In this document: positions 45,125 to 54,058 of the stretch, one piece after another
Layout: each line of letters opens with the position of its first letter
How positions within the stretch are numbered: the first letter of the stretch is position 1
Source: Acrocarpospora corrugata
Lineage (GTDB): Bacteria; Actinomycetota; Actinomycetes; Streptosporangiales; Streptosporangiaceae
NCBI RefSeq assembly: GCF_009687845.1
Contig: NZ_BLAD01000038.1
Coordinates: 1 to 64,000 of the forward strand
Length of the DNA: 64,000 bases
Reading direction: 5' to 3'
Translations under genes and position numbers: made by a program
The notes under the pieces: model-generated
Told to the model about the DNA's origin: nothing
The model's input: only the letters and a program-made list of their open reading frames with translations
Databases searched by the model: none

Positions 45125-47575
45125 CTACGTGCGCTTCCAGAACGGCCGGCGGGCGCGGGTCGATTCCTCCGGCGCGGGCGTCCCCGCCTGGCCGCCGGTG
45201 AGGCGGGCGAGCAGGTCGGCGGCGCGCTGCCAGAGCCGGGCCAGATCCGCCTCGGCCCGCTCGGCCCCCTCCAGTTCGGCCGCCAGCGCCCCCAGTTCGG
45301 CGTGGCCGCCCACCATCTGGTCGATCACCCGCAGCCGGCTGGCCAGGTCGGCCAGGTAGCGGCGGCGCTCCTGATCGGGCCGCCCGGCAGCGGCGCGCAG
45401 CCGGACCAGTTCCTCGCCGAGCAGGGCGCGCACCCCGTCCAGGCTGGTCTGCGGAGCCCGCTCCCGGCCGGGATGCGGCTGCATCCCTGGGTAGGGAACG
45501 GCGGACTCGTCAGCGCGGCGGCGGGCCGGCTTCGGCGCGGGCGCGCCGCCCGGCCGCATGGCGAACGGCGCGGCGGCCCGGGGCGCGGCGGGCATCCGGG
45601 GCGCCTGGGCGGGCGGCGGCGGAGGCGTGGGCCCGCCGGGGGCCGCGCCGCCGAAGGCGTCGTCGGCGGCGAAGGAGACCCTCTGCATCCGGGGCGAGGC
45701 GGCGGCCGTCATGTTCATCGTCGGCATCTCCCAGCCGCTGGGCTGCTCGACCGGCTGGATCACGTGGTGCTCCGGCCCGCCGTCCGCGACCACCCGCGAG
45801 TCCACCGCGACGAACGCGGTGAACCGGCACAGCACGCCGAACCGCAGCGACGTCGCCACGATCCGCGACTCCAGCTGCCGTTCGCCGATGGTGTACCGGT
45901 CCTCCAGCCGCCGTACTTCGGCGCGGGCCCACACCGCCCGCGCGGCGGGCGCGTCCACGCTGCGGCCTTCGGCCCTGTTCTCCCACGGCCTGCCTTCCGC
46001 CGTCCCCCGTACGGTGATCGCCGGGCTCCCGCCACGACCACGGAACCGTCCCGACACCACCAGCGGCACTCCGGTGAAGAGCGACCCCGCATGGGTGATC
46101 GTGTCCGGCACCAGGTCGAGGTCCGCGGCGTCCAGGGTGAGGTCGGTGACCAGCGGGGAGCCAATCCTGCGGTGGATGTGCTCCATCGCCTCGTCCAGCC
46201 GATCCTCCGACTCGACCAGCTCGCACCGGCCGGAGCCGAGCAGGGCCAGCCGCCCGAGGAACCCGGCGTTGACGGCCCGGTCGATGCCGACCGTGTGGAG
46301 CCGGATCCCGGACTGGGCGGTGAGCTGCGTGCCGGCCCGCTCGACGATCTGGTCCTCGTTGCCGACCTGCCCGTCGGTCACCAGGACCATGACCCGGTCC
46401 CTGCCGGGGTCGCCGAGCAGCCGGAGGGCCTCCTCGATGGGGGCCAGGAGTTCTGTGCCGCCGCGCGCGTCCAGCCGGGACAGGTGCTCGACCGCCCGGT
46501 AGCGGTTCCGGTCGCTCGCCTCGACCAGACCGGCGGGGAAGGCGCGCTCGATGTCGTGGTCGAAGGAGAGCACGGCCAGCCGGTCGTGCGCGGTCAGCGT
46601 GTCCACGATCCGGGCGGCGGCGCGGCGGGCGGCGACCATCTTCCAGCCGGTCATGCTGCCGGAACGGTCGAGTAGCAGCACCACGTCGCGGGGCTTCGGG
46701 GCCTCGGCGACGTCGGCCGGGGGAGTCATGGTCAGGGTGAACGTGCCCTCCTCGCCGTCCTCGTCCGGGGTCAGGGCCAGGGCGGTGGAGGCGTCGAAGG
46801 CCAGGCGCAGGATGAAGTCGCGGTCGAGGCGCTCGCCGGGCCGCACCTGGACTGTCCGGGTCTCGCCTTCGGTGGTGTCCACGGTGTGCAGGCTGGAGCG
46901 GATCTCGCGCAGGTCGAGGCCGGCCGGGTCGATGGCGGCGGTCAGCGACAGCCGGACCGGATTGGGGAAGCCCGGCAGCAGGACCGGCGGGGTGATCCGG
47001 GACGCGTCGGGGACGGCGTCGGTGTCCTCGGCCGCGCCGGCGCCGGACTGGGTGCCGTCCAGTGGCGCGCCGGGGATGTAGCGGGGGGCCACGACCAGCG
47101 GGAAGCGGAATTCGGCGGACCCGTCCTCGTAGGGCAGCGGCTGGCTGAGCGTCAGGCGGACGGTCACTCGCTCGCCGGGCACGATGTTGCCGACCCGGAT
47201 GCTGAACACGTCCGGCCGGTCCTCCTCGGCGATGGCTGCTCGGCGGCCTTGCGCCAGCGCCCGGTCATAGTCCGCCCTGGCCTGGCCGCGCTCCTTGAGC
47301 AGGCCCGCCACGACGCGGTCGTCGGCCTCCATGCTGAAAGCGGTCACCGCGGCACGGGGCGGCAACGGGAACACGTAGGTGGCCTCAAGCGACACGTCGT
47401 ACGGATTGCGGAAGCCCTGGGCCACCTCCACGCCCGCGGTCAGGCCGCTGAGCTGGGCTGTCACCGTGACGCTCTCCAGCGGCAGGTTGCCCCTCTCGGT
47501 CTCCAGGGCGCCCAGCCCGGCATCGGGCACCGGCACGTACTCCTCCGGCCGCAGCGGAGTGATGGGAACGGTCAT
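45125..47575 (-). CDS. VIT domain plus von Willebrand factor A domain protein
   Basis: An 816-residue protein without signal peptide. The N-terminal VIT domain has LPLESVTVTAQLSGLTAGVE, YVFPLPPRAAVTAFSM and NIVPGERVTVRLTLSQPL. The central VWA domain is PRDVVLLLDRSGSMTGWKM (MIDAS DxSxS), with DRLAVLSFDHDIERAFPA and RVMVLVTDGQVGNE. A Pro/Ala-rich low-complexity region and a helical C-terminal tail follow (REERRRYLADLASRLRVID-like). This is the bacterial inter-alpha-trypsin-inhibitor-like architecture, of unknown function. It is ATGA-coupled to a MerR-type regulator. Confidence 0.92.
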   Translation of the reverse strand: MTVPITPLRPEEYVPVPDAGLGALETERGNLPLESVTVTAQLSGLTAGVEVAQGFRNPYDVSLEATYVFPLPPRAAVTAFSMEADDRVVAGLLKERGQARADYDRALAQGRRAAIAEEDRPDVFSIRVGNIVPGERVTVRLTLSQPLPYEDGSAEFRFPLVVAPRYIPGAPLDGTQSGAGAAEDTDAVPDASRITPPVLLPGFPNPVRLSLTAAIDPAGLDLREIRSSLHTVDTTEGETRTVQVRPGERLDRDFILRLAFDASTALALTPDEDGEEGTFTLTMTPPADVAEAPKPRDVVLLLDRSGSMTGWKMVAARRAAARIVDTLTAHDRLAVLSFDHDIERAFPAGLVEASDRNRYRAVEHLSRLDARGGTELLAPIEEALRLLGDPGRDRVMVLVTDGQVGNEDQIVERAGTQLTAQSGIRLHTVGIDRAVNAGFLGRLALLGSGRCELVESEDRLDEAMEHIHRRIGSPLVTDLTLDAADLDLVPDTITHAGSLFTGVPLVVSGRFRGRGGSPAITVRGTAEGRPWENRAEGRSVDAPAARAVWARAEVRRLEDRYTIGERQLESRIVATSLRFGVLCRFTAFVAVDSRVVADGGPEHHVIQPVEQPSGWEMPTMNMTAAASPRMQRVSFAADDAFGGAAPGGPTPPPPPAQAPRMPAAPRAAAPFAMRPGGAPAPKPARRRADESAVPYPGMQPHPGRERAPQTSLDGVRALLGEELVRLRAAAGRPDQERRRYLADLASRLRVIDQMVGGHAELGALAAELEGAERAEADLARLWQRAADLLARLTGGQAGTPAPEESTRARRPFWKRT

Positions 47576-48162
47576 GACGGTGTCCCTTCGGATTTCGTGA
47601 TGAGAAGGCCGAGCTCGATCAGGGCCGCCAGCAGCGGCCCGGCCGCAGCGGTGAGCACGGCCAGGTCCGCGTCCGACGGCGCCCGGTTCGCGCCGTCGAG
47701 CATCAGTCCAACGCCGGGAGCGAGCCGCACCCCGTGAATGCGCCCGCCGACCGGCGGTGAGTTCCGTGCCGCCGGCGCGTGGTCGGCCGAAGCGGCCCAG
47801 AAGCGGGCGCGCCGGTGTTCCGGGGAGGCGTGTTCCGGTTCCGCCGGGTCGGTGGCGGGGAGGCCGGCGATGTTCTGGAGGGTGGCGTCGGGGGCTCCGG
47901 CCAGTTCGATCTGGATGTCCGCGATGGAGCGGCCGGCCGCCTGGCGGCGTTTGACCGCGACGAGTTGCAGCAGGTGGCGCGGGCCGTAGAGGGCGACCCG
48001 GCCGCGCCGGGCCAGCGGCGGATCGAGCAGGCCGATCGTCGCGTACCACCGGATCAGGCGTTCGTTCGGGATGTCCCGGACCCGCCCGTTGACGCGGCCG
48101 TCCGAGCCGAGCGCGTCAGCCGCGCGCTCGGCCAGCTCGCCGATGGTCCAGGTCTCGCTCAT
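47572..48162 (-). CDS. MerR-family transcriptional regulator
   Basis: A 196-residue regulator. The N-terminal winged helix-turn-helix has TWTIGELAERAADALGSDGR, IPNERLIRWYATIGLLDPPL and RVALYGPRHLLQLVAVKRRQ, the MerR R-x-Y-x-x-x-G-L-L motif, with an unusual insertion in the first helix region. The C-terminal half is a non-standard effector region ending LLAALIELGLLIT. No Cys pattern for metal sensing is seen. Cotranscription with the VIT-VWA gene and a perfect operator just upstream (48172-48196) suggest autoregulation. Confidence 0.88.
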   Translation of the reverse strand: MSETWTIGELAERAADALGSDGRVNGRVRDIPNERLIRWYATIGLLDPPLARRGRVALYGPRHLLQLVAVKRRQAAGRSIADIQIELAGAPDATLQNIAGLPATDPAEPEHASPEHRRARFWAASADHAPAARNSPPVGGRIHGVRLAPGVGLMLDGANRAPSDADLAVLTAAAGPLLAALIELGLLITKSEGTPS

Positions 48163-48196: not shown

Positions 48197-48264
48197 CAAC
48201 TTAGGAACAGATTCGGTCCTTTTCGGGTTGTCTGTAAAAGTCCATCTCGATGGAAGGAATCAGC

Positions 48265-48735
48265 ATGGCTCCGATTACCAGCCTTCTGACCGCCGAGAAC
48301 AAGAAGATCACCGGAACCGCCCTGCAGGGCGCCCTCGTAGACCTCCTCGATCTCGCGCTGGTGGGCAAGCAGGCGCACTGGAACCTCACCGGGCGCTTCT
48401 TCCGCACGATCCACCTCCAGCTCGACGACATCGTGTCGATGGCCAGGAAGAAGGCCGACGCGGTGGCCGAGCGCGCCGTCGCCATCGGCGTCAACCCGGA
48501 CGGCCGGGCCCAGACGGTCGCCAACGACAGCCACGTGCCGCACCTGGAGGCCGGGCCGATCGAGGACGGCAAGGCGATCGCCGCGATGACCGACATCCTG
48601 GAGTCGATCATCCGGCGGATGCGGGAGCGGATCGAGGCCACCGAGCGCCCCGACCCGGTCAGCCAGGACCTGATCATCGGTCTCACCCGGGACCTGGAGA
48701 AGCACCACTGGATGATCCAGGCCCAGCTCCGCTAG
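48265..48735 (+). CDS. dps: Dps-family DNA-protection ferritin
   Basis: A 156-residue Dps/starvation ferritin. Ferroxidase-site residues are in VGKQAHWNLTGRFFRTIHLQ (His-Trp-Asn) and LDDIVSMARKKADAVAERAV (Asp/Glu). The ALQGALVDLLDLALVGKQAH helix is typical. Dodecamers oxidise Fe(II) with H2O2 and protect DNA. ATG 48265 is preferred over ATG 48250 because AAGGA lies 7 bases upstream. It shares CTAG stop bases with the convergent KAP gene. Confidence 0.93.
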   Translation: MAPITSLLTAENKKITGTALQGALVDLLDLALVGKQAHWNLTGRFFRTIHLQLDDIVSMARKKADAVAERAVAIGVNPDGRAQTVANDSHVPHLEAGPIEDGKAIAAMTDILESIIRRMRERIEATERPDPVSQDLIIGLTRDLEKHHWMIQAQLR

Positions 48736-51644
48736 AGCAGGCGTTTGGCCAGGTCGGCGACCGGAGGGTCGGAGGCGAGCAGGGCTCGCAGCGCCGCGCT
48801 CGCCTCGGCGGGGAGGCCGACCTGCGGGGCGACCTCCGCCCAGCGGTCCGCCCGCGCGGCCTGCTCCAGCAGGCCGAGCGTGCTGTCCCGGTGGAGCGGG
48901 CAGTCCCGGGTCAGCAGGGAGAGCAGATGCGGCCAGCGCACGGTGAGGGCGGCCAGTTTGGCCACCTCGGCGTCGCTGGCCGCACGCGCGCCGGCCAGCC
49001 GCTGGCGGTAGGTGACGAACGAGTAGAACCGGAACACGTTGACATACCGCTTGAGTTCGCGCGGGTTGCTGGCGGACAGCGCGGGCAGCGCGACCTCGAT
49101 CGCCCGGTAGGCGTTCTCGTCGCTGTACAGGTCGTCGAAGACCCGGTCGGCGGCCGCGCGCGTCTCCACCCACAGGCCGCCGAGGGTCTCGGCGTCCCCG
49201 GCGGGGGCGCCGACGACGCGCTGGGTGGCGCGGGCGATCTGGTCGAGGGTGTCGGCCTGCGGACGCCGGGCGCGGATGGCGTGTTCGAGCCGGCGGACCA
49301 GTTCGTGGTCGAGCGGCTTCGCGGCGGGCCGCTGCCGGGGGAGGCTGACGGCGGCTTTCGGCGTGCTGTCCGAAATTCCCATCAATGCTCGGACATATGC
49401 CGGTAGGCGGGTGCTGTCGTCCAGGACCGGCACCGACAGCGGGAGTTGCACGATCTTCTCCAGGAACCGCCAGCCGATGCCCTGCCGGAGGCTCTCCGGC
49501 ATCGACTCCACCAGCTCGCGGTAGGCCAGCTCGACGTGGGCGGCGACCACGTCGGGCTCCATGGCCAGCACGAAGACGCAGTCGGGGAACTCGCCGGCCA
49601 GGAACAGGTTGATCGCCTCGATCACCTGGGCGACCGTGCCGGACGAGCAGCGGTCCAGGTCGTCCACGAACACCACCAGCGGGCGTTCCTCCGTCGCGAC
49701 CAGGCCGAGCACGTGGCGCATGTCGGTCTGGACCATGTGCAGGAAGCCGGTCCTGGCGCCGTACCCGGGTTCCGCCACCAGTTCGGTGCCCTCGGGCGGG
49801 GTGGAGAACAGGTCGGGCGGGCGGACCAGGGTGGTGAAGGCGGTGTCGGCGGATTCGGTGAGGAAGCGCGCGAGCCGTACCCAGCCTGTGGCTACCGCCG
49901 CCAGCGCGCCCAGCGACGAGATCGCGGCAGCGGTGCCTTCCAAGGCCGGGAGCAGTGGGGTCGCCAGTTCGGAGGCACCCGCCAGGACCAGCGCCATGCC
50001 CAGGCCGAGCGCGGCGGGGGCCAGCCGCAGCACCGCCAGCCGGTACGCCCGACGCCTGACCGCCTCGCGGTCGATCCTGGCCAGGTTGAGGCGCAGCCAG
50101 AAGCGTTCCCGCTCTCCCCGGGGCAGCCGCTCGGTGACCTGGGTGATGATCTCGTGGGCGAGACCGGCCCACACCTGCTCCCCGTTCTGGTACATCCACG
50201 GGTTGAACCACACCGTCGGCCGCCACCCGGTCACCCCGGCCGCCGCCTCTGGCAGCGGCTCCGGCGGCCTTTTCGCCCAGCTGCGGACCTCCGCGTTGGT
50301 CACCCGGTCGGGTTTGGCCATCGCGTCCGGCCACAGCCGCCCCACCAGCCTCAGCAGCCGCGACGGCGGCCGGGACGGCAGCGGCCTGGGCAGGTGGATC
50401 GGCCCGGGATCGCCGGTCGCCGCGCCCGGGTCCAGATCGTTCTGGATCATCCGCATCAGCGAGGTCTTGCCGGTTCCCCACGGGCCCTTGATCCCGATCG
50501 TCAGCGGCGGCCTGGTCTCGGGGTGGCGGACGAACGCCGCGATCGCCTCCGCGTACACCCGATGCCCGAGATGGTCGTCGATGGTCCAGCGGTCGGGGGT
50601 GAGCCGGGCCCGGGGCTGCACGGTCCGCTGCCCGGCCCGCCAGCGGCGCAGCACGCCGGGCGTCTCGTCGAGCTCGGCCGGGGTGAGCCTGGCCCGGCCG
50701 GCCCGCGCCACGCTGGGGTGGGCGAACGGCGCGCCGTGCCCCAGTAGCCGCCATTCCGCCAGCTCCGCCCGCGCCTCCGGGTGGCCGGTCAGCAGCCGGG
50801 CCACCTCCGGCGTCAGCTCCTCGTCGTCGGCCAGCAGCGACGCGCGCCGCAGCAGCGTCTGGGCCTCCGCGCTCAGGTACTCGTCGTACACCATGCCGAC
50901 CAGGCGCTCCGCGGAGGAGGGGTGGCCGCCGACCCGGCCGTGCGCGTGCGCGAGCTCGGGCGGGATGCCGGAGCCTGCCGTGGGCGCGGTGGGGGCGACC
51001 GCGATGTCCATGCCCTCGGCGGAGGTGAGCAGGTGCGGCTGGAACTCGGCGTCCTCGCCGAACACGGCCAGCGCGTGCGCGAGCAGGTCGCCGACCGAGA
51101 CCATCCCGTCCCGGTCCAGGTCGGCCTCGCCGTCCAGCAGGCCGGTCGCCACCACCTCGGTCAGGGACAGGCTGCCGGGCCGTACCTCCTCGCCGATGGT
51201 GAGGCCGGTGGTGAGGGCGGCGGCGGCCACGCCCGGCGGGGTGAGCAGGGTGCTGACCGTGGGCTCGTCCACCGAGGCGCTGCCGATCCAGCCGAAGTCG
51301 ACCACCATCAGCAGGGCCGCCGCCGCCGAGTCGCCGGCCCTGGCCGCGAACCGGCGGATCAGCCGGGTGAAGTCGCTGCCGCTCCAGCGCGCCGTCCTGG
51401 GCCAGCGCACCAGCAGCAGCTCGCCCGGCCCGCCCGACTCCAGGAACGCGCTCAGCCGCTGGTGGTCGCGGCTGTCCAGGCTCTGCTGGGCGTCCACCTC
51501 GAAGCCGCAGCCGCGCAGCGCGCTCACCAGCCGGCGCGCCGGTTCCGGGGCGCGCCGCCCGGGTTCTTCTGGGTCGAGGAAGACCAGCGCCCGCCGCCGG
51601 GTGATCGTGGGCGAGCTGGTTCTGTCGGTGATCGCGCTGGTCAT
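48732..51644 (-). CDS. pseudo-caspase / EF-hand / KAP P-loop NTPase fusion protein
   Basis: A 970-residue protein. Residues about 17-215 follow the bacterial caspase (C14) domain layout: RRALVFLDPEE, ALRGCGFEVDA, GELLLVRW, LLMVVDFGWIGS (111-122), LSLTEVVATGLLDGEADLDR and the C-terminal FQPHLL. The catalytic His (usually GHG) and Cys (usually DCCYSG) are replaced. An EF-hand-like loop D-L-D-R-D-G-M-V-S-V-G-D sits at 175-186. Residues about 350-970 are a KAP NTPase: Walker A GIKGPWGTGKTS (384-395), WFNPWMYQN (479-487), two membrane helices (about 537-558, 570-588) and Walker B PLVVFVDDLDRC (655-666). ATG 51644 follows GGAG. KAP NTPases often mediate membrane-linked defence or signalling; the role here is inferred. 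Confidence 0.85.
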   Translation of the reverse strand: MTSAITDRTSSPTITRRRALVFLDPEEPGRRAPEPARRLVSALRGCGFEVDAQQSLDSRDHQRLSAFLESGGPGELLLVRWPRTARWSGSDFTRLIRRFAARAGDSAAAALLMVVDFGWIGSASVDEPTVSTLLTPPGVAAAALTTGLTIGEEVRPGSLSLTEVVATGLLDGEADLDRDGMVSVGDLLAHALAVFGEDAEFQPHLLTSAEGMDIAVAPTAPTAGSGIPPELAHAHGRVGGHPSSAERLVGMVYDEYLSAEAQTLLRRASLLADDEELTPEVARLLTGHPEARAELAEWRLLGHGAPFAHPSVARAGRARLTPAELDETPGVLRRWRAGQRTVQPRARLTPDRWTIDDHLGHRVYAEAIAAFVRHPETRPPLTIGIKGPWGTGKTSLMRMIQNDLDPGAATGDPGPIHLPRPLPSRPPSRLLRLVGRLWPDAMAKPDRVTNAEVRSWAKRPPEPLPEAAAGVTGWRPTVWFNPWMYQNGEQVWAGLAHEIITQVTERLPRGERERFWLRLNLARIDREAVRRRAYRLAVLRLAPAALGLGMALVLAGASELATPLLPALEGTAAAISSLGALAAVATGWVRLARFLTESADTAFTTLVRPPDLFSTPPEGTELVAEPGYGARTGFLHMVQTDMRHVLGLVATEERPLVVFVDDLDRCSSGTVAQVIEAINLFLAGEFPDCVFVLAMEPDVVAAHVELAYRELVESMPESLRQGIGWRFLEKIVQLPLSVPVLDDSTRLPAYVRALMGISDSTPKAAVSLPRQRPAAKPLDHELVRRLEHAIRARRPQADTLDQIARATQRVVGAPAGDAETLGGLWVETRAAADRVFDDLYSDENAYRAIEVALPALSASNPRELKRYVNVFRFYSFVTYRQRLAGARAASDAEVAKLAALTVRWPHLLSLLTRDCPLHRDSTLGLLEQAARADRWAEVAPQVGLPAEASAALRALLASDPPVADLAKRLL

Positions 51645-51820
51645 CGGGGTGCTCCGCTGGCTGGCCTGGAACGGATCACTGTAGGTGCCTGCCGCCGGGG
51701 CGGGGCCCACGATTTGCGCAAAGTTTGAGCGCAAGAACCGTGCGGATTCCCCGGGTGTTCATGCGGGTTCGATCGACTGGCGGGACCCGTCGCGCGTAGC
51801 GTGCCCTGTGGGAGGAGACT

Positions 51821-53014
51821 ATGTTGCGCCGCACGTTCGTCCGCTCGGGGGCTTTGGCCGCGCTCACCGGCTCACTTTGGCGGTCCGCCTGCGCGGCGCC
51901 CGCCGTCCCCGGTGCCGCGCCGTCGCCCGTTTCGTCGTCCGCTTCGCCGCCAGTTCCCTCGCCGACTCCCACCGGTGACGCAGTCCGCGGCAAAGGGCCT
52001 TACGGCGCGCTCGCCAAACCCGACAAGAACTCCATCGCCCTGGCCGAAGGCTTCACCAGCCGTGTGGTCGGCCGCTCCGGCCAGCGCGTCGGCGGCCTGA
52101 CCTGGCATCCCGCCCCCGACGGCGGCGCATGCTTCGCCGACGGTGACGGCTGGATCTACGTCTCCAACTCCGAGGTCCCCGTGGTCGGCGGCGTCTCCGC
52201 GCTCCGGTTCGGCCCGGACGGCTCGATCAAGACCGGCTACCGCATCCTGTCCGGCACCGACCGCAACTGCGCGGGCGGCGCGACGCCGTGGAACACCTGG
52301 CTGTCCTGCGAGGAGACCGTCCGCGGCCGCGTCTTCGAATGCGACCCGTACGGCTACCGCGCCGCCGCCCCCCGCCTCGCCATGGGCCGGTTCAAGCACG
52401 AGGCCGCCGCCTGCGACCCCGACCGCGAGGTCGTCTACCTCACCGAGGACGAACCGGACGGCTGCTTCTACCGGTTCCGCCCGGAAGACTGGGGCGACCT
52501 CACCACCGGCATCCTGGAGGTCATGGTCGGCGACGGCGCGGGCCCGGTCCGGTGGCGGCGGATCCCGAACCCGTCCGCCTCGCACGAGCCGACCCGCGAC
52601 CAGGTCGAGGGCGCGATCCGCTTCAACGGCGGCGAAGGCTGCTACTACTCCGGCGGCTTCTGCTACTTCACCACCAAGGGCGACAACCGCGTCTGGGCCT
52701 ACGACGCGGCCGCCCGGGAACTATCGGTGCTCTACGATGCCAACGCCCCGCTCAAAGGCGTCGACAACGTCTTCGTCTCCCGCTCGGGCGACCTGTTCGT
52801 CGCCGAGGACGGCGGCAACATGGAGATCAACATCATCACCGCCGACGGCGTCGTCGCTCCCTTCCTCCGGCTGGTCGGCCACAGCAGATCCGAGATCACC
52901 GGCCTTGCTTTCGCCCCGGAGGGCGATCGCCTCTACTTCTCGTCCCAGCGCGGCACCACGGGTTCCAACCGTTCCGGCGTCACCTACGAGGTGATGGGGC
53001 CGTTCCGGGCCTGA
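51821..53014 (+). CDS. PhoX-like (DUF839) secreted protein
   Basis: A 397-residue exported protein with a twin-Arg-like N-terminus (MLRRTFVRSGALAALTGSLW) and a Pro/Ser-rich spacer. The body is a beta-propeller of the PhoX/DUF839 family: GGLTWHPAPDGGACFADGDG, GGATPWNTWLSCEETVRGRV, RFKHEAAACDPDREVVYLTE, GCFYRFRPEDWGD and LFVAEDGGNMEINII. PhoX enzymes are Ca/Fe alkaline phosphatases exported by Tat. TWLSCEE retains the Cys/Glu pair, but full active-site identity cannot be judged by eye. GGGAGGAG precedes the start. It overlaps the convergent ABC ATPase remnant by 31 bp. Confidence 0.85.
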   Translation: MLRRTFVRSGALAALTGSLWRSACAAPAVPGAAPSPVSSSASPPVPSPTPTGDAVRGKGPYGALAKPDKNSIALAEGFTSRVVGRSGQRVGGLTWHPAPDGGACFADGDGWIYVSNSEVPVVGGVSALRFGPDGSIKTGYRILSGTDRNCAGGATPWNTWLSCEETVRGRVFECDPYGYRAAAPRLAMGRFKHEAAACDPDREVVYLTEDEPDGCFYRFRPEDWGDLTTGILEVMVGDGAGPVRWRRIPNPSASHEPTRDQVEGAIRFNGGEGCYYSGGFCYFTTKGDNRVWAYDAAARELSVLYDANAPLKGVDNVFVSRSGDLFVAEDGGNMEINIITADGVVAPFLRLVGHSRSEITGLAFAPEGDRLYFSSQRGTTGSNRSGVTYEVMGPFRA

Positions 53015-53607
53015 GCCGCCGCCTTGACCACCTCGGTCGGCCGCTCCCGCATCTCCGCGAAGCCAGGATCGGCCCGGGGATGCTCCAGCGCCGGCAGTTT
53101 GGACCGCTCGTCCAGCACGATCACCCCCGGTGATCCGCTCAGCGCGACCACCCGCGTGCCCAAGTAGACCGCTTCGTCCACGCTGTGCGTCACGAACAGC
53201 ACGGTCGTCCCGGTTCGCTGCCACAGCGCCCTGACCTCGTCCTGCATGCGCTCCCGGGTGAAGGCCACCCGCTCCCGGCGCGTGGCCTTCGGCAGCGAGC
53301 GCAGCACGAAAGCCACGTTGGCCGCCACCGACAGCCACGGGAACAGCCTTGGCTGCTGGAAGACCACCCCACGGGACGGATCCGGCCCCGCCACCGGCTC
53401 GCCGAAGGCGCGTACCGACCCCTCGTCCGGGCCGGCGAACCCGGCGACCAGCCCGAGCAGCGTGCTCTTCCCGCACCCGGACGGCCCGACGAGCGTGACG
53501 AACTCGCCGGACTCGACCACCAGATCCACCGGACCCAGCGCCGGCCGCCCCCGGAACGACTTCGTCACCCCCAGGACCTCGAAGGCCTCAGCTCCCGGCG
53601 AAGGCAT
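52984..53607 (-). pseudogene. sulfonate/nitrate-type ABC ATPase with internal deletion
   Basis: A 207-residue open frame resembling SsuB/TauB. Walker A GPSGCGKST (41-49), Q-loop VVFQQPRLFPWLSVAANVAF and the H-loop TTVLFVTHSVDEAVYLG (about 134-150) are intact. RSLPKATRRERVA passes directly into FTRERMQDEV at about residues 114-117 (genomic about 53260). In the family about 50-55 residues lie between these, holding the LSGGQ signature and Walker B aspartate. Without them ATP hydrolysis is not expected. The frame is preserved, so a shortened protein may still be made, but I regard it as inactivated. It overlaps the binding-protein remnant by 20 bp. Confidence 0.85.
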
Positions 53608-54058
53608 CCGCGAGTTCCCTGGTGGCCAGGCCCTGCTGGAACACGCCCAACTCCGGCACCGTGTCCACCTTCTGCTGAGATTTCAGGAACTCGGCCGCGC
53701 TGTGGAGGTTCTCGGCCAGTTTGCCGGGAGCCTCCGGAGTGCCCAGATACTCCGGCGACCGCTGCTCGGCCGCGTCCAGCAGCACCAGCTGGCCGAGCTG
53801 CCTGGCGGCCTCCGCCGGAGCCAGGTTGAGCTGCCGCCCGATCGCCGCCGCGGCGGCCACGTCGTCGGTCCTGGCCAGCTTGACCGCCCGGTCCTGCTGC
53901 CGCAGCCACACCTTCAGCGCCTCCGGATACTGCTTCGCGAACTCGGTCCTGACCACCGCCAGGTCGGCGGTGAGCTTGCCCCGCCCGGCCAGGTCCTAGC
54001 TGGTGACCAGCACCGCGCCGTCCTTCTCCAGCTCGGTCGGAATCGGCGTCCACTCAGT
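53588..54058 (-). pseudogene. remnant of aliphatic-sulfonate/taurine ABC substrate-binding protein with in-frame stop
   Basis: Only the C-terminal half remains. TEWTPIPTELEKDGAVLVTS is followed by a TAG at 53996-53998, then in the same frame DLAGRGKLTADLAVVRTEFA, QYPEALKVWLRQQDRAVKLA and LGTPEAPGKLAENLHSAAEF. This is the typical SsuA/TauA-like C-terminal domain. The N-terminal domain and signal peptide are missing; sequence upstream belongs to the MarR-GNAT gene, whose stop is only about 10 bp away. No permease gene is present. A shorter 122-residue frame (start 53956) could be mistaken for an intact gene. Confidence 0.87.

Follow-up and report, generated by a model that had tools for sequence, protein, structure and literature searches.

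A caspase-like domain without catalytic dyad on a KAP NTPase of Acrocarpospora corrugata and related Streptosporangiaceae

The first 64,000 nucleotides of contig NZ_BLAD01000038.1 from Acrocarpospora corrugata (Streptosporangiaceae; assembly GCF_009687845.1), hereafter the window, contain a gene whose product combines an N-terminal domain of predicted caspase fold, a helical domain, and a KAP nucleoside triphosphatase (NTPase). The caspase-like part has lost both catalytic residues and carries the invariant motif DFGW in place of the motif with the catalytic cysteine. With moderate confidence, we lean toward the reading that this protein is a membrane-associated KAP ATPase switch with a pseudo-caspase in the N-terminal effector position. 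The computed parts of this reading are the caspase fold, the loss of the dyad, the invariant DFGW, the intact ATPase motifs, purifying selection, and a mostly shared chromosomal site. A first-pass annotation of the window, made by reading the sequence alone, had described an open reading frame (ORF) with a dead caspase-like part, an EF-hand, and a KAP NTPase. This observation was confirmed as a whole, with corrections of detail. Its interpretation held for the fold, the dyad loss, the EF-like loop, the KAP part, and the lone gene, whereas the suggested calcium sensor was weakened and the verdict “unusual” has to be qualified.

Neither of the caspase (C14) models PF00656 and NF047832 was matched in Pfam and NCBIfam searches with 22 N-terminal domains including that of the window protein (maximum E-value (E) 10), nor with the whole window protein (maximum E 1). 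The relation to caspases was found by profile comparison. Alignment A1 contained the window protein and 21 of 29 homologue loci (22 rows), whereby near-duplicates (L003, L007, L008, L024, L030) as well as loci with a long insert (L011), an N-terminal truncation (L023), or a different N-terminus (L027) were excluded. Alignments A2 and A6 combined the window protein with 20 and 14 of the 29 loci, respectively. The broad caspase set A3 was made up of 25 of 30 caspase loci (L070–L074 excluded) plus L031 and L041, and A4 of 11 of these 27 sequences, picked for their EF-type segment, which favors a match; in one A4 row (L057) extension in the wrong direction left most of the tail missing. Using hhalign, the domain matched the active EF-type caspases of A4 with 98.6% (E 5.7e-16), compared to a maximum of 8.1% in shuffle controls, which were run against A4 only. 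A template-free model of the N-terminal domain yielded a caspase fold across the whole domain. Foldseek returned ten matches at E 0.001 for this model, with loose alignments (top match: template modelling (TM) score ~0.55, root-mean-square deviation 7.6), and no match at this threshold for the full-length model, for which MALT1 was best (0.11). A PDB profile search with the domain led to fragments of P-type ATPases and to EF hands of the calmodulin type (best E 0.0099), which we attribute to chance together with the EF loop. As judged from the model, the N-terminal domain has a caspase fold that the C14 models tried here missed. Residues ~1–215 had been proposed to be caspase-like by eye, and both the fold prediction and the profile comparison bore this out; a model devoid of a caspase fold, named beforehand as the refuting outcome, was not obtained.

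The alignment with active caspases placed DFGW opposite DCC(Y/F), the motif with the catalytic cysteine, and RWP opposite the end of the preceding strand, whereby the H-G residues of the active enzymes fall into a gap. The spacing between these two sites is 33 residues in the window protein vs. 49 in the active relative L041. Thus, DFGW had been assigned correctly to the cysteine site in the first-pass annotation, whereas its placement of RWPR (residues 80–83) at the GHG position is only approximate. In the 42 rows examined, representing 41 distinct proteins, DFGW and the arginine of RWP (Arg80) are kept in 41 out of 41, and not a single row has a cysteine around the DFGW columns or a histidine in the columns after strand 3. 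The loss of both catalytic residues, claimed from the window protein, is therefore common to all 41 proteins. Among the 22 A1 rows, 33 columns are invariant, including Arg80, Trp87, and D-F-G-W (full-protein numbering); Trp87 is absent from a few proteins of the wider set (e.g., L043, L044, and L049). In the domain model, strand 3 ends with RWP, and DFGW belongs to the latter half of a long strand (98–110 of the model), which in the full-length model stops just before DFGW. The active site of caspases is located at the edge where both motifs sit. From this sequence pattern, the domain should be proteolytically dead, and the modeled former active-site edge may now form a putative binding pocket. 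Since the replaced site is identical in the relatives examined, the pseudo-caspase probably binds something rather than cuts.

The loop DLDRDGMVSVGD near the end of the domain suggests another role, namely that of a calcium-responsive sensor in which the EF-hand loop gates the KAP ATPase, as had been put forward in the first-pass annotation. The EF-hand-like segment noted there at ~165–180 is real, although the actual loop is shifted and only overlaps it; of an adjoining Q-x-P motif, the proline is conserved in homologues and the glutamine is not. The loop has the canonical form in 29 of the 41 proteins, that of the window among them, and EF-hand models and calmodulin-type loops occur among the weak matches of the domain. 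However, it is non-canonical or shortened in the remaining 12 proteins, all of which retain DFGW: seven Herbidospora proteins have lost the position-3 ligand, and in five others (two from Nonomuraea, three from two further genera) the loop is shortened or broken. Moreover, active EF-type caspases share the same loop type, so that the loop was probably inherited and not gained with the loss of catalysis. For these two reasons calcium sensing would be an accessory property at most, and we consider a calcium-gated switch improbable.

The C-terminal part was recognized as a KAP NTPase by Pfam (PF07693, E 4.1e-30, 105.5 bits vs. a cut-off of 20). Walker A reads G-(P/A)-WG-(T/A)-GKTS and Walker B VFVDDLDRC in 21 out of 21 rows, in agreement with the complete KAP NTPase that had been read from the sequence. 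A structure search (VIA) with the full-length model found the KAP part similar in fold to RdrA, ORC, and CED-4. KAP NTPases are defined by membrane helices inserted between Walker A and Walker B. Here, the full-length model predicts two adjacent long helices (526–561 and 566–596), which likely form a membrane hairpin. Two membrane helices had been suggested before; of the two modeled helices, only the first exceeds a hydropathy of 1.5 (peak 2.05); short stretches outside the helices (107–125 and 677–695) also exceed this value. PADLOC matched the window protein to QatA and PifA, with the best stretches lying within the KAP part, and the NCBIfam QatA equivalog scored 94.9 bits, below its cut-off of 600. 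Between the caspase-like and KAP parts lies a helical domain that had been overlooked before. It is predicted confidently (blocks of predicted local distance difference test scores of 78–94 over 231–340) and gave no family or PDB match worth naming in Pfam and PDB; by eye, we would guess a resemblance to a winged-helix domain of STAND proteins. The homologue L025 lacks it and keeps both the dead caspase and KAP. Outside the Streptosporangiaceae, the nearest KAP protein in the loci examined is encoded in Amycolatopsis (L027:8783-11992; 46% identity over KAP). Its N-terminus has no Pfam match, is unrelated to the pseudo-caspase, and appears TIR-like by eye. A protein from within the Streptosporangiaceae (L046:1226-4813) combines in one chain a trypsin-like domain, an nSTAND5-type domain, and KAP, in this order, which is another stacking of peptidase and NTPase. 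Because these two carry other N-termini, the position ahead of KAP looks exchangeable, as effector positions are, by analogy.

Strong matches to the domain profile (E 9.1e-27 or better) were found in 50 of 341 family genomes from ten genera. Another 56 family genomes gave weaker matches only, mostly to the C-terminal part, and those inspected individually (e.g., L041 and L063) are active caspases. A shallow class sample of 394 genomes contained three carriers, all from the same family; no carrier outside the family was detected there at E 1e-20 (KAP part) or 1e-12 (A1) among the three (KAP part) or seven (A1) candidates scored per genome in the matches listed, which makes this absence weak. 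In the loci examined, 92 of 124 KAP ORFs carry the pseudo-caspase domain (duplicates included, many ORFs being cut by locus ends), all strong pseudo-caspase matches fall within KAP ORFs, and the only KAP ORFs matched by the active-caspase profile are those with the pseudo-caspase. The homologue neighbourhoods, whose collection had been proposed together with the first-pass annotation, revealed recurrent neighbours: within 23 neighbourhoods (the window and 22 loci), dps is near in 19, a VIT/vWA gene in 18, and a PhoX gene in 13. Conversely, 16 of 30 dps loci have the fusion gene within the flank, and three are from carriers with the fusion further off (L121, L129, and L130). Five fusion-free genomes with dps and PhoX 0.19–0.93 kb apart represent empty sites, one locus has PhoX on the opposite side of dps, and five have neither; one of the latter is from a carrier (G062) with fusion and dps on separate contigs. 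By these counts, the fusion gene is mostly a settled chromosomal gene, at one site that is mostly shared between genera. An operon or partner gene was considered and rejected, as the dps, MerR-type, and VIT/vWA genes border the site whether or not the fusion is present.

RdrA, CED-4, and ORC oligomerize into rings. By analogy to these fold relatives, ATP binding might cause the KAP part to assemble into a ring, which would cluster the pseudo-caspase domains at the membrane. There, the remodeled active-site edge could offer a binding surface for a putative peptide or partner protein, whereby the pseudo-caspase would serve as scaffold, decoy, or sensor, not as protease. The output might lie with the partner recruited in this way or directly with the KAP and membrane part. 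A more specific proposal, which we make tentatively and would not rely on, is that a caspase has become a recognition module without catalysis, whose invariant pocket (Arg80 and DFGW in 41/41, Trp87 in most) would read a specific ligand or partner and gate the membrane KAP ATPase, and the gene would be kept vertically at one site rather than in a mobile defence island.

An alternative reading takes its model from animals. c-FLIPL is an animal protein with death-effector domains and without an ATPase. It is a pseudo-caspase of solved structure (3h13). In a c-FLIP-like role, the pseudo-caspase would pair up with an active caspase of the EACC1 type in its own cell, activating or blocking it. The genome of the window has three C14 caspases. 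Caspases were counted by NF047832 because PF00656 found C14 in 25 of the 50 carriers vs. 34 of 50 by NF047832 (in genome G033, no match vs. three). At E 1e-5, EACC1-type caspases are thus present in 34 carriers and lacking in 16, compared to 24 of 41 genomes of a family sample at the looser E 1e-3 (carriers included), so that there is no clear enrichment in carriers. Furthermore, no physical linkage with active caspase genes was seen. A c-FLIP-like regulator of EACC1-type caspases is therefore not our favored reading, and we regard it as unlikely. With 14 matches, genome G051 is rich in EACC1-type caspases; it also has the weakest of the 50 strong pseudo-caspase-KAP matches.

Several points weigh against the ATPase switch with a pseudo-caspase effector. 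The C-terminal 61 columns supply most of the profile signal (98.7% by themselves); once they are removed, hhalign gives 90.2% against A4 and only 3.5% against the broader A3. In the full-length model, the placement of the domains relative to one another is poorly predicted (predicted TM score 0.41). There is no operon partner, and dps and PhoX stand together without the fusion at the five empty sites. Finally, the ratio of nonsynonymous to synonymous substitution rates (Ka/Ks) of the pseudo-caspase is above that of KAP in 6 of 8 hand-picked species pairs. The weak tail-less match, the missing library match, and the loose Foldseek alignment might point to a Rossmann-like domain that arose by convergence, ends in an EF-hand-like tail, and is not a caspase at all; given the caspase fold modeled across the whole domain, we rate this as very improbable. 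The lost catalytic residues and the Ka/Ks values, which indicate that the pseudo-caspase is less constrained than KAP, could also mean that the caspase part is a decaying, non-functional relic on a working KAP ATPase. However, for each of the three domains, Ka/Ks stays below 1 in 8/8 pairs (pseudo-caspase 0.18–0.45, KAP 0.11–0.29), the fold is predicted confidently, ten genera carry the domain, and the conservation of DFGW and of the 33 invariant columns would not be expected from a relic. These substitution patterns argue that the domain is not simply decaying, and there is little to recommend the relic.

The closest profile match of the pseudo-caspase is to the EACC1-associated caspases of actinomycetes (NF047832; PMC7159879), in whose EF-type subset the domain ends with the same EF-type segment. 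These have H and DCC(Y/F), whereas neither His nor Cys is found here; the accessible text places their genes second, behind a small EACC1 gene (Kaur et al., 2020). None of them was fused to KAP in the loci examined, and the fusion gene adjoins Dps-type and PhoX genes, an EACC1 neighbour not being recognized by annotation without any EACC1 model search. A bacterial caspase fold that lacks the catalytic dyad is also found in the pseudo-orthocaspases (Asplund-Samuelsson et al., 2012, PMC3501461; Klemencic et al., 2019, PMC6426788). According to the available portions of the 2019 survey, at least one of the two catalytic residues is missing from 858 of 9,994 orthocaspases, and sequences gapped at His or Cys were discarded. 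Their substitutions (mostly Y and S) lie in p20 regions found by hidden Markov models, whereas here the His falls into a gap and the Pfam C14 model is silent. In vWA-MoxR conflict systems, ~70% of the caspases in effector position are given as inactive, and dominant-negative or peptide-binding roles are proposed (PMC7159879, in the parts accessible). These are dead caspases in effector position as here, though fused to the vWA component and not to a KAP NTPase encoded by a stand-alone gene. The KAP NTPase of the window is of the kind used in bacterial immunity: conflict-system members (RdrA, QatA, PifA) share the P-loop domain with Walker A/B, and the accessible text of PMC8195603 mentions KAP in place of a STAND NTPase and contains no pseudo-caspase on KAP. 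KAP is also among the targets of diversity-generating retroelements (PMC10907252, partial text). Thus, the fusion had been called unusual with partial justification: inactive bacterial caspases are common, but the pseudo-caspase-KAP fusion, the DFGW replacement, and its conservation were not found in the accessible portions of the open-access literature.

The features are listed in Table 1. The ORF starts with an ATG at 51644 and stops at 48732; the start codon is backed by the homologue L003, whose frame begins eight residues ahead of an identical MTSAITDRTS. The nearest named relatives of the protein (76–87% identity) are from A. macrocephala, A. pleiomorpha, A. phusangensis, and A. catenulata. 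On the convergent side lies a ferritin-like Dps-type gene (48250–48735, +; PF00210, E 8.4e-18) and on the divergent side a PhoX-type gene (51821–53014, +; PF05787, E 1.4e-35), a layout that agrees with the single-gene unit beside dps described before. A MerR-type gene followed by a gene for a VIT and vWA protein (45125–48162, −) adjoins dps, as it does in genomes with or without the pseudo-caspase gene. In 12 picked upstream regions, a conserved block was found in some genera; since it is located between two divergent genes, it is not assignable to either. The element GTTCATGCGGGTTCGATCGACT (51757–51778, +), upstream of the PhoX gene, is kept in Acrocarpospora rows and partly in Herbidospora rows; by its resemblance to the consensus, it is a candidate PhoP (PHO-box) repeat. 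Beside the PhoX gene, 52984–53956 (−) looks by eye like a decayed ATP-binding cassette importer, with a short ATPase ORF (207 aa, PF00005) and a 122-aa ORF without Pfam match that by eye resembles the end of a substrate-binding protein; no permease ORF was seen in the ORF list of this stretch.

Table 1. Features of the pseudo-caspase-KAP gene (positions in the window).
Feature	Residues	Position	Strand	Basis
Whole gene (pseudo-caspase, helical domain, KAP NTPase)	970 aa	48732..51644	-	ORF, L003 start, Ka/Ks
Pseudo-caspase domain	13-222	50979..51608	-	Profile comparison and predicted fold
RWP, end of strand 3, next to place of lost catalytic His	80-82	51399..51407	-	Alignment
DFGW, replacing DCC(Y/F)	116-119	51288..51299	-	Alignment; 41/41 distinct proteins
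EF-hand-like loop DLDRDGMVSVGD	175-186	51087..51122	-	Canonical in 29/41 proteins
Helical domain	229-339	50628..50960	-	Full-length model; by eye STAND winged-helix-like
KAP NTPase domain		49026..50558	-	Pfam PF07693; fold like RdrA, ORC, CED-4
Walker A GPWGTGKTS	387-395	50460..50486	-	Conserved in 21/21 rows
Two long helices between Walker A and B, likely membrane hairpin		49857..50042	-	Full-length model and hydropathy
Walker B VVFVDDLD	657-664	49653..49676	-	Conserved in 21/21 rows

Overall, a dead caspase with an invariant active-site replacement is found on one ATPase subfamily only in the loci examined. As this is one gene at one locus with conserved residues, it makes the role of bacterial pseudo-caspases directly testable. 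It also suggests that pseudo-caspase surveys in which sequences gapped at the catalytic residues are dropped would miss such proteins. If the proposed recognition module is real, pseudo-caspase signaling would have a bacterial counterpart whose origin is separate from that of the dead caspases known from bacteria and animals.
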